Of a stretch of 64,000 nucleotides of DNA, positions 11,750-64,000 are shown piece by piece. The position numbers and the translations under genes were made by a program. Every line of letters begins with the position of its first letter. Within the stretch, counting starts at the first letter, position 1. Origin of the DNA: Prevotella sp. (lineage in GTDB: Bacteria > Bacteroidota > Bacteroidia > Bacteroidales > Bacteroidaceae); the NCBI GenBank assembly GCA_017960525.1, contig JAGCZA010000145.1, positions 16,611 to 80,610 on the forward strand, written 5' to 3'. Under the pieces are notes generated by a model, which saw only the letters and a program-made list of their open reading frames with translations, did no database searches and was not told the DNA's origin.

Positions 11750-12963
11750 TTACTATGGACGAAATGAAACTGAACACAATAGAGGAGGCTATAGGCGACT
11801 TCCGCGACGGCAAATTTGTCATCGTAGTCGACGATGAAGACAGGGAGAACGAAGGCGACCTCATCTGTGCCGCCGAGAAGATTACGTCCGAAATGGTGAA
11901 CTTCATGCTAAAGCATGCCCGTGGAGTGCTCTGTGCCCCTATTACCATCAGCCGCAGCGAGGAGTTGCAGCTGGCCCACCAGGTGCAGGACAACACGTCG
12001 CTCCTTGGCACCCCCTTCACCGTCACCATCGACAAGCTGGAAGGGTGCACCACAGGTGTTTCAGCCCACGACCGTGCTGCCACCATCCGTGCATTGGCCG
12101 ACCCAGCCTCCACGCCGCAGACCTTCGGACGGCCTGGCCACGTCAATCCTCTTTACGCCCAGGACAACGGCGTGCTCCGCCGCAGCGGCCACACCGAGGC
12201 AGCCATCGACCTGTGCAAGTTGGCTGGGCTTTATCCAGCCGGTGCCCTCATCGAGATTATGAACGACGACGGCACACTGGCACGCATGCCCCAGTTGCAG
12301 GAGTACGCCCAGCAGCACGGCCTGAAAATCATCACTATCAAAGACCTCATTGCCTATCGGCTGCGCCAGGAGTCGCTCATCGAGGTGGGGGTCGAAGCCG
12401 ACCTTCCCACGCAGTTCGGCCATTTCCGCATCATTCCCTTCCGCCAGAAAGTGGGCGGACAGGAGCATTTCGCCCTCATTAAGGGTCAGTGGCGCGAGGA
12501 CGAACCCATTCTCGTGCGTGTTCATTCTTCCTGTATGACGGGCGACATACTTGGCTCTATGCGTTGTGACTGTGGCGAACAGCTGCACCGTGCTATGGAG
12601 ATGATTGAGCGCGAGGGCAAGGGTGTCATTGTCTATATGCAGCAGGAGGGCCGCGGCATCGGGCTGATGAACAAGCTGGCGGCCTATCGTTTGCAGGAAG
12701 AGGGCTACGACACCGTCGACGCCAACCTCTGCCTGGGCTTCAAGGCCGACGAGCGCGACTACGGCTGTGGGGCGCAGATGCTGCGCCATCTGGGTGTCCA
12801 TAAGATGCGCCTGATGACCAACAATCCCGTGAAGCGTGTCGGACTGGAAGCCTACGGACTGGAAATCGTAGAGAATGTTCCTATCGAGATAGAGCCAAAC
12901 GAATACAATCTGCGCTATCTTCAGACCAAGCAGCAGCGCATGGGGCACACGCTGCATCTATAG
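11746..12963 (+). CDS. ribBA: Bifunctional 3,4-dihydroxy-2-butanone-4-phosphate synthase / GTP cyclohydrolase II
   Basis: Makes both early precursors of riboflavin. 405 aa. RibB half about 1-205: [44 protein letters not shown]. RibA half about 210-405: [20 protein letters not shown] with the zinc cysteines, [12 protein letters not shown], and [11 protein letters not shown]. Both active sites look complete. ATG 11746 overlaps the permease stop; an in-frame ATG at 11755 is an alternative. A perfect ribosome-binding site for recG begins directly after its stop. Confidence 0.95.
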
Positions 12964-17248: not shown

Positions 17249-17366
17249 AGTGTCATCTGTTCCGTCGGATTTGCAAATCCCGTCGAACAGGTCGAGCAGG
17301 TTCCGTCGAACAGGGGCTTTATCCGTTTAATTCGTGAAATCCGTTGTTTCCAAAATGGGCTGTGAA

Positions 17367-17432
17367 GTTTGGACGAACCAAACTCCTGGTTTGGACGAAC
17401 CAAACTCATAGTTTGGACGAACCAAATTTTTG
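17367..17432. repeat. 22-bp alternating-hairpin array, 3 units
   Basis: Three contiguous 22-bp units at 17367, 17389 and 17411. Each has the core TTTGGACGAACCAAA (5-bp arms, loop ACGAA), extended to 7-bp arms in places. Linkers are CTCCTG and CTCATA; the last unit runs into TTTTTG. It lies between convergent gene ends. Bases 17368-17407 are identical to the reverse complement of 47557-47596. Confidence 0.9.
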
Positions 17433-17466: not shown

Positions 17467-18105
17467 TCAAAGGGAATTGGAGGCGAAGACAAACTGGTGG
17501 TTGTCCAGTTGCCACGATATGAGGCCGTAGCGTATGAGGCGGGCGAGAAGGGTGATGACTTTGGGGCGGGGTAGGCGGGTCTGGCGCACCAGTTGGTTCA
17601 GCGTGTGGCTGGCGTCGTCGGACAGGACGGAGAGCAAGCGCTGTTCGGCCTCGCCGTAAGTGAAGGTCGTGGCCTTTGGCGACTGCTCTTCACGCCAGAT
17701 GCACAGATGGACGGGCGACGCCACAATGTTCTCGTCGTCGATGCGGATGAAGGCCCGCTGGCGTCCGTCCTCGTCGATGGCACAGACGGGGCGGTGGTCC
17801 GACTTCGGCACGGTGGCGATGACGATGACCCTCCCCTGGACGTGATAGGTGTCGAACTTGATGCTGGCCTCCGGGCGGCAGTAGCGGTAGGCGGCTTGGT
17901 GCATCATATAGATCTCCTCCTCGGAGCGCACACCGCAGAGGCAGCCGTCGTCGCGCACGCCGATGAGCAGGCGGCCACCGCAGGTATTGGCAAAGGCCGA
18001 GACAGAACGCGCCAGCTTCCTGGCGTCTTCAACGCGATACTTGAAGTCTTGCTGCTGGTGCTCCCCCTCGCGTATAAGCCCTTGCAGATAGCGCAGGTCA
18101 TCCAT
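17467..18105 (-). CDS. AlbA_2 (Schlafen-type ATP-binding) domain protein
   Basis: 212 aa. Residues about 5-130 match the AlbA_2 pattern: LIREGEHQQQDFKYRVEDARKLARSVSAFANTCGGRLLIGVRDDGCLCGV and the later VIVIATVPKSDHRPVCAIDEDGRQRAFIRIDDENI. The C-terminal 70 residues look like a winged helix (AEQRLLSVLSDDASHTLNQLVRQTRLPRPKVITLLARLIRYGLI). This suggests a DNA-binding regulator, but ligand and targets are unknown. ATG 18105 lies 8 bp after the rodA stop, so it probably follows rodA in one transcript. Longer upstream starts would overlap rodA. Confidence 0.8.
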   Translation of the reverse strand: MDDLRYLQGLIREGEHQQQDFKYRVEDARKLARSVSAFANTCGGRLLIGVRDDGCLCGVRSEEEIYMMHQAAYRYCRPEASIKFDTYHVQGRVIVIATVPKSDHRPVCAIDEDGRQRAFIRIDDENIVASPVHLCIWREEQSPKATTFTYGEAEQRLLSVLSDDASHTLNQLVRQTRLPRPKVITLLARLIRYGLISWQLDNHQFVFASNSL

Positions 18106-27649: not shown

Positions 27650-27733
27650 TTAAATCAACGACATTGATTTAACGTTCAATGTCATTGATTTAATGTTCAT
27701 TGTCGTTGATTTATCGTTCAATGTCGTTGATTT
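27650..27733. repeat. 21-bp tandem hairpin array (TTGATTTAA type)
   Basis: Three 21-bp units begin at 27671, 27692 and 27713, all ending TTGATTT, with the core GTTCAATGTC. A half-unit in front forms TTAAATCAA-CGACA-TTGATTTAA (27650-27672): 9-bp arms and a 5-nt loop. Sequence is unrelated to the neighbouring 22-bp array but the design (arms, 5-nt loop, about two helical turns) is the same. Together with that array it fills the 331-bp gap 27508-27838, where no gene is seen. Confidence 0.85.
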
Positions 27734-27737
27734 AACT

Positions 27738-27838
27738 TTTGCTCCGTCCAATTGGATCAATTGGTTCGTCCAATTGAAGCAAATGGTTCGTCCAATCTCG
27801 GAGAAAGGACGAACCAATTTTTTCTTATGGACGAATCA
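27738..27838. repeat. Degenerate 22-bp hairpin array, ATTGGTTCGTCCAAT variant
   Basis: Units begin at about 27738, 27760, 27782 and 27804, with cores such as ATTGGTTCGTCCAAT and a last pair in the opposite orientation (GGACGAACCAATT, GGACGAATCA). The TTCGT/ACGAA loop is kept while arms drift from TTTGG to ATTGG. The array begins at the stop codon of the SSS transporter gene on the minus strand. Confidence 0.8.
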
Positions 27839-39247: not shown

Positions 39248-39285
39248 GTTTGGTTCGTCCAAATTTTCAGGGAGGATGAACTAAT
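39248..39285. repeat. Single 22-bp hairpin unit plus degenerate second copy
   Basis: GTTTGGTTCGTCCAAATTTT at 39248-39267 is one intact unit. GGAGGATGAACTAAT, 22 bp further on, is a decayed unit in the opposite orientation. It lies in a divergent gap (nudC and TRL), unlike the arrays between convergent ends. Confidence 0.7.
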
Positions 39286-47480: not shown

Positions 47481-47514
47481 CCCCCTTGATGGGTCGCTGT
47501 ATTGCAGGCTCAGA

Positions 47515-47602
47515 ATTTGGTTCGTCCAAACTTGGAGTTTGGTTCGTCCAAAGTGTGAGTTTGGTTCGTCCAAACCAGGAGTTTGGTTCGTCCAAATTTT
47601 TG
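47515..47602. repeat. 22-bp alternating-hairpin array, 4 units
   Basis: Units begin at 47515, 47537, 47559 and 47581, each with the core TTTGGTTCGTCCAAA. Linkers are CTTGGA, GTGTGA and CCAGGA; the last unit runs into TTTTTG, as in the 17.4 kb array. It lies between the convergent ends of uvrB and the sensor kinase gene. The orientation is opposite to the 17.4 kb array. Confidence 0.92.
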
Positions 47603-47630
47603 GGATGCCCAAACGTCTATTTTGCGACTG

Positions 47631-63961: not shown

Positions 63962-64000
63962 ATTTGGACGAACCAAACTATGAGTTTGGACGAACCAAAG
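63962..64000. repeat. 22-bp alternating-hairpin array, at least 2 units, cut by window end
   Basis: Units start at 63962 and 63984 with the core TTTGGACGAACCAAA. The linker CTATGA is the inverse of the CTCATA linker at 17.4 kb. The array continues beyond the window. Confidence 0.85.

Follow-up and report, generated by a model that had tools for sequence, protein, structure and literature searches.

Dispersed intergenic arrays with a strict 22-bp register in a Prevotella genome

What kind of element repeats a short palindrome in strict 22-bp steps at several separate places of one Prevotella genome? The question is raised by a stretch of 64,000 nucleotides (here referred to as the window), which belongs to contig C86 of a 94% complete draft assembly (3.97 Mb, 146 contigs). 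The original prediction placed a common core, GGTTCGTCC, at five loci, and all five are present as described. In fact, the core has 14 matches in the window against 0.53 expected (100 shuffles, largest 3); 13 of them lie at the five loci, and the remaining one (12498–12506) is lone and intragenic. Moreover, TTTGGTTCGTCCAAA with at most three mismatches has 13 matches in the window against 1.64 expected.

The first locus is a three-unit array on the minus strand (17366..17432; cores 17371–17379, 17393–17401 and 17415–17423) in a gap between convergent genes. A gene or gene fragment with Schlafen AlbA_2 and winged-helix matches (17467–18105) lies beside it. The second is a five-unit array without assigned strand (27738..27838) that keeps a single 22-bp register, with exact cores at 27763–27771 (+), 27785–27793 (+) and 27807–27815 (−); its two degenerate cores lie at 27741 and 27829. 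Directly beside this locus is another, separate tandem array with a 21-bp unit (TCAATGTCATTGATTTAACGT, 3.9 copies, 27655–27736), which is dyad-like too. A short plus-strand array (39249..39285, intact core 39252–39260) stands between divergent genes. The four-unit array on the plus strand (47515..47602; cores at 47519, 47541, 47563 and 47585) occupies a convergent gap, 35 bp after a UvrB-like gene, and a two-core array on the minus strand (63962..64000; cores 63966–63974 and 63988–63996) runs up to the window end. Exact 22-bp repetition had been claimed for all five loci; it holds between neighbouring cores at 17367–17432, 27738–27838, 47515–47602 and 63962–64000, whereas 39248–39285 has only one intact core and a degenerate one 22 bp on.

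Both the enrichment and the period extend to the rest of the genome, so neither of the outcomes named as refuting the original prediction arose. We found 347 copies of TTTGGTTCGTCCAAA (182 and 165 by strand) against none of the reversed control pattern, and 254 pairs of the form GGTTCGTCC-N13-GGTTCGTCC, which corresponds to 22-bp spacing (136 and 118 by strand; control 0). Same-orientation pairs of GGTTCGTCC with linkers of 0–12 or 14–34 bases are absent genome-wide, that is, none has any other spacing between 9 and 43 bp. As a positive control, linkers of 13–34 bases recovered the 254 pairs, so the gapped search works and every such same-orientation pair stands at exactly 22 bp. We further focused on a 447-kb sample (the window and a further 383 kb, some 11% of the genome). 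In its 20 multi-core arrays, successive cores are 22 bp apart in 39 cases and 44 bp apart in two; the skipped middle cores of the latter carry 5 and 2 mismatches. Beyond the outer cores, degenerate cores are most frequent at offset 22 (9 against 0.8 expected). There is also an unexplained excess of core-like 9-mers 18 bp past the outermost core (6 against 0.8 expected). Genes were called by a home-made codon-scored heuristic, used in place of longest-ORF calls, which are likewise heuristic. By these calls all 20 multi-core arrays are intergenic, and two of six lone exact cores lie inside genes.

Each 22-bp repeat unit is a dyad made up of AGTTTGG-TTCGT-CCAAACT and a trinucleotide that varies. 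Counting degenerate units, 2 of the 31 distinct arrays whose flanks were read have two units, 13 have three, 13 have four and 3 have five; the array ends are AT-rich, and the flanks hold little information past about 7–8 bp from the outer core. Our linker statistics cover the first 100 of the 254 linkers, from 49 arrays, 38 of which have two or more. The trinucleotide takes 29 of its 64 possible forms in these linkers, nine forms making up 75 of the 100, and the commonest are reverse-complement partners (ATG 16 and CAT 10, GGT 12 and ACC 4, CCC 10 and GGG 9, AGG 5 and CCT 5). It had been claimed that the arms vary while loop and period hold. Core and register do hold, but the arm changes are often uncompensated: the first position after the core is T in 27 of the 100 linkers and positions 11–13 remain T in 95–98, and the bases after the core read AAA, TAA or TTT with no matching change on the opposite side. 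The unit had also been described as two alternating hairpins. The second dyad, half a period away, does exist; however, it is not a separate feature, because any tandem palindrome has one.

The palindromy itself exceeds chance, with a value of 0.58 over a set of 31 arrays that includes the window's own at 47515, against 0.47 in shuffled units (z 11). It is clear (p < 0.01) in 11 of the 31 arrays, so the dyad reading cannot be the whole story; the window array at 47515 reaches p 0.08 because its centre and trinucleotide do not pair. A common 11-bp AT phasing, as in intrinsic curvature, was absent from the arrays tested (z 0.8).

The arrays appear to grow in place. Neighbouring linkers are identical in 8 of 51 pairs (0.7 expected) and belong to one subfamily in 43 of the 51 (28.4 expected), which indicates that units duplicate locally. 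Ordered pairs of non-identical linkers recur in different arrays twice, against 0.23 expected (p 0.02), which hints weakly that blocks are copied.

The word proved to be private to this genome. Tandem pairs of GGTTCGTCC are absent from 59 relatives and from 300 other genomes of the family (the two sets overlap), and ten near relatives together have a single 15-mer, with one mismatch; the reversed control pattern has 2 matches, in one genome (G270) of the 300. The array at 47500–47610 has no BLAST match in phages and plasmids. Viral contigs gave at least 120 matching stretches, and each of the 80 among the matches listed has a single 15-mer. A contig scan gave at least 27 matches, 20 among the matches listed being, by their titles, from outside Bacteroidota and mostly GC-rich. 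Of the other 7 listed, two (Prevotella RUG759, L072, and Prevotellaceae RUG13180, L073) combine the same 9-mer with other arms in 22-bp arrays, and five (L067, L074, L075, L081 and L084) have 11-bp arrays, as do L071 and L085 of other phyla. As the scan pattern itself selected for this spacing, we draw no conclusion from these matches; the 20-sequence group from other phyla was also chosen by the spacing and cannot serve as a control. In three of these contigs (L074, L075 and L081, Prolixibacteraceae McBI.27), 11-bp arrays of ATGGTTCGTCC are followed by inverted relatives of the word across a short loop.

The same genome holds a second 22-bp palindromic family of its own, TTTGCAGCG..CGCTGCAAA (L046:8958–9043 and L058:8349–8435), with 5 unit junctions genome-wide and none in 12 other genomes. 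A third 22-bp array consists of three copies of ACTTAGAAGGTATATAACTCCC (L050:14355–14421). With the main family masked, 3 of the 17 tandem runs in the genome are still at 22 bp.

A search of related Prevotella genomes had been proposed. The sequence is not common to them, but the period is present with other sequences. We sampled 25 further genomes of the family and scanned them for tandem periods of 12–44 bp, and 22 bp was the commonest, accounting for 30 of 94 runs, in 16 of the 25 genomes and with unrelated words; it is followed by 44 bp (10 runs), 33, 24 and 23 bp (5 each) and 21 bp (4). The first scan outside the window's genome gave 23 of 71 runs at 22 bp. These comprise 3 of 14 in G365, 2 of 5 in G024, 6 of 23 in G003, 1 of 2 in G016, 1 of 12 in G009, 4 of 4 in six more samples of the same genus and 6 of 11 in twelve samples from other genera (4 of these from one genome, G069); further stretches of seven of those genera added 7 of 23. 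The leading period is 23 bp in G009 and 44 bp in G024, and G004 and G010 have no tandem run of any period from 12 to 44 bp. As controls, viral contigs gave 0 of 28 runs at 22 bp in 988 kb, 272 kb from other families of the order gave 1 of 10, and E. coli had no run in 50 kb. The 30 of 94 corresponds to p 1e-22 if all periods are equally likely and p 5e-9 if the 22-bp share is one in ten; these values are indicative, as runs within one genome may share ancestry. Spacing of perfect palindromes, tried as a sequence-free test, gave an 11-bp ladder in G003 only, the criterion being too strict.

The words found elsewhere at 22 bp include TTATACACGTTTGTATAA plus 4 bases (G003), GCACAACAGCTGTTGTGC plus 4 (G365), TTTATCACGCGTGATAAA plus 4 (G069) and ACGTTTCC.. 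(G024). Those of G365 and G024 form private, dispersed families of their own, with 31 and 13 pattern matches and none in five other genomes each; as a symmetric junction is counted on both strands, these correspond to about 13 and 7 loci. Of the 7 loci in G024, 6 could be assigned a position relative to genes, and two of these 6 fall within short gene calls that are dubious. The G365 arrays lie inside a larger element that seemingly, by eye, ends in AGGGTGTGTCATAAG and its complement. This dispersed element with inverted ends (L344–L356) contains two distinct 22-bp repeats, of which the first is palindromic and the second (TGTTGTTGGAAGAGATAGGATA-like) is not. In G061 a long minisatellite with 22-bp units, also non-palindromic, extends over about 14 copies (L378:17041–17354). 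At 30 loci of the UvrB-like gene, a tandem run lies within 300 bp downstream in 5 and is at 22 bp in 3 (the window, G365 and G006), all with different words and too few to argue for conservation of the site. The geometry, unlike the word, is not private.

Three functions had been suggested for the repeat, namely a mobile repeat, a protein-binding platform and a bidirectional transcription end signal. Of these, a repeat that moves, or at least disperses, agrees best with the data, because the word is private, the arrays are scattered and intergenic, and the units are duplicated locally; judged from the sequences the family has dispersed, and it may also move. A protein platform on one helix face possibly applies as well, since it fits the fixed phase, but neither a binding protein nor a mobilising enzyme came to light. 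Taken as a whole, our reading is that these are species-private, dispersed, non-coding intergenic minisatellites whose 22-bp register is held by a protein or enzyme that meets the dyads, and we give it about an even chance of being right. Whole units would be duplicated and short blocks copied to new places. The sequence period of E. coli is close to 11 bp (PMC516772); at about 11 bp per turn, 22 bp would make two helical turns and bring the dyads to the same side, where a dimeric DNA-binding or DNA-processing protein could meet them on one helix face and so keep the register. The word would be replaced between species, while the spacing rule would stay.

The same arrays could also be a pure satellite with no host role, made and homogenised by duplication in whole double turns and spread by chance or selfish copying. 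We consider this possible but doubtful. The privacy of the words and the local duplication of units agree with it, as do the non-palindromic 22-bp arrays of some relatives. The neighbouring genes are also ordinary: 18 of 20 neighbouring proteins have a Pfam match and 2 do not, and the matches (glycosidases, SufB-like, DXP synthase, cytidylate kinase, symporter) follow no theme. However, blind duplication does not explain why the units of the 31 arrays compared with shuffles are more palindromic than chance, and the arms decay, yet the core and the register hold.

In a second alternative, the array works in both directions as an intrinsic terminator or as an RNA 3'-end hairpin: its transcript would form a long stem that has a T-run at each end. 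For two arrays, both strands (4 folds) indeed fold far better than shuffles (z −4.7 to −5.8); the minimum-energy folds of 17364–17432 (plus) and 47512–47602 (minus) are single long hairpins with internal loops, and the other two strands give two hairpins. The AT-rich array ends point the same way, as do the arrays of G365, 8 of 13 of which lie in convergent gaps (p 0.005, with a background that includes these loci). Against this, the 20 arrays of the 447-kb sample fall in 12 codirectional, 4 divergent and 2 convergent gaps, with 2 at a stretch edge. Gaps of at least 60 bp at large, the array gaps included, comprise 89 codirectional, 34 divergent and 12 convergent ones, so the 18 placed arrays have no enrichment in either type (convergent p 0.67, divergent p 1.0). 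The last units had been said to run into TTTTT; a T-run does follow one end at the window loci, but this is not general, as TTTT stands at the sense end of only 6 of the 12 codirectional arrays and at the antisense end of 3. Moreover, a hairpin does not need a fixed 22-bp step without length change. As the arrays prefer no gap orientation, ending transcription is not borne out as their main role, and we regard this explanation as unlikely.

We know of no earlier description of the 22-bp word, which agrees with the original prediction. That no such design had been described does not hold, since both species-specific dispersed palindromes (REP/BIME) and a 23-nt minisatellite MITE, BrickBuilt, are on record, and the present arrays are probably a dispersed repeat of this general kind. 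Porphyromonas, the host of BrickBuilt, belongs to the same order of bacteria as the host of the window. According to its description (PMC4596501), BrickBuilt of Porphyromonas gingivalis likewise has a spacer-free tandem unit of nearly equal length (23 against 22 nt), is dispersed, intergenic and species-specific, and is predicted to form long stem-loops. Unlike it, the 31 distinct arrays share no flank past about 7–8 bp, whereas BrickBuilt, in the same source (PMC4596501), has a leader and a tail whose ends are inverted repeats and occupies 19 loci in a single strain, far fewer copies than here. The G365 arrays come close to it, as their enclosing element with inverted ends seems, by eye, to provide both leader and tail.

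In the broad sense of a high-copy, dispersed, intergenic and species-private palindrome, the family is also a REP/BIME element. REPs, as outlined in PMC3733652 and PMC6006769, comprise a GTAG class with RAYT and a CGTC class and are short, mostly intergenic, clustered and often species-private palindromes of high copy number; most of them form dimers, head-to-head or tail-to-tail, whose spacers vary, whereas our arrays are head-to-tail with an exact 22-bp step. The CGTC type, as far as described there, carries its tag at one end of an 8–9 bp stem with a loop of 4–5, in head-to-head dimers that rarely cluster; here CGTC lies inside the centre GG-TTCGT-CC, the stems are 5–7 bp and the arrays mostly head-to-tail. 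By reading, the unit TTTGGTTCGTCCAAACTNNNAG has no constant GTAG or GTGG tag at the hairpin foot. The nearest system in design is therefore BrickBuilt and the nearest in copy number and privacy are the REPs, and the family shares all defining features of neither.

Dispersed, private, palindromic and intergenic arrays would also be expected of REP elements that a Y1 transposase (RAYT) mobilises. This is very improbable here: the only Y1_Tnp match of the 94% complete draft is partial (E 2.6e-7, profile 27–105 of 121), its gene has DRVH at what we take to be the position of the HuH motif, no core lies on its 10-kb contig, and G003 has 22-bp arrays but no Y1 match. The gene itself (L223:1016–1555) is a lone Y1-transposase-like one. 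The family resembles the CGTC-class REPs in having no known transposase (PMC3733652, PMC6006769). A CRISPR-like or TIGR-like guide array, which would share only the regular short repeats, is hardly credible, and the prediction rightly set CRISPR aside: spacers are absent, only 3 nt of the unit vary and these recur in a limited number of kinds (29 of 64), the arrays are scattered genome-wide, and the array compared with phages and plasmids had no match.

Arrays read by dimeric proteins are familiar from plasmids, where iteron-type arrays of origins and partition sites place tandem sites near two helical turns apart. Those stand one per replicon beside the gene of their protein, unlike the present family with its dozens of chromosomal loci and no known partner. 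Dispersed palindromes are already known, and the new part would be a strict period that outlives its sequence, for which we know of no precedent; we found no report of a family-wide 22-bp period in the open-licence literature. Tentatively, a sequence-independent 22-bp ruler may shape intergenic arrays throughout the family. Every species would retain the geometry and alter the word, as if a fast-evolving dimeric DNA-binding or DNA-processing protein were co-evolving with its private palindromic satellite, in a bacterial analogue of centromere satellites. If the period does outlive the sequence, it would provide a sequence-free signature for finding such arrays across the family and, if the reading is true, lead directly to whatever protein or process measures 22 bp.
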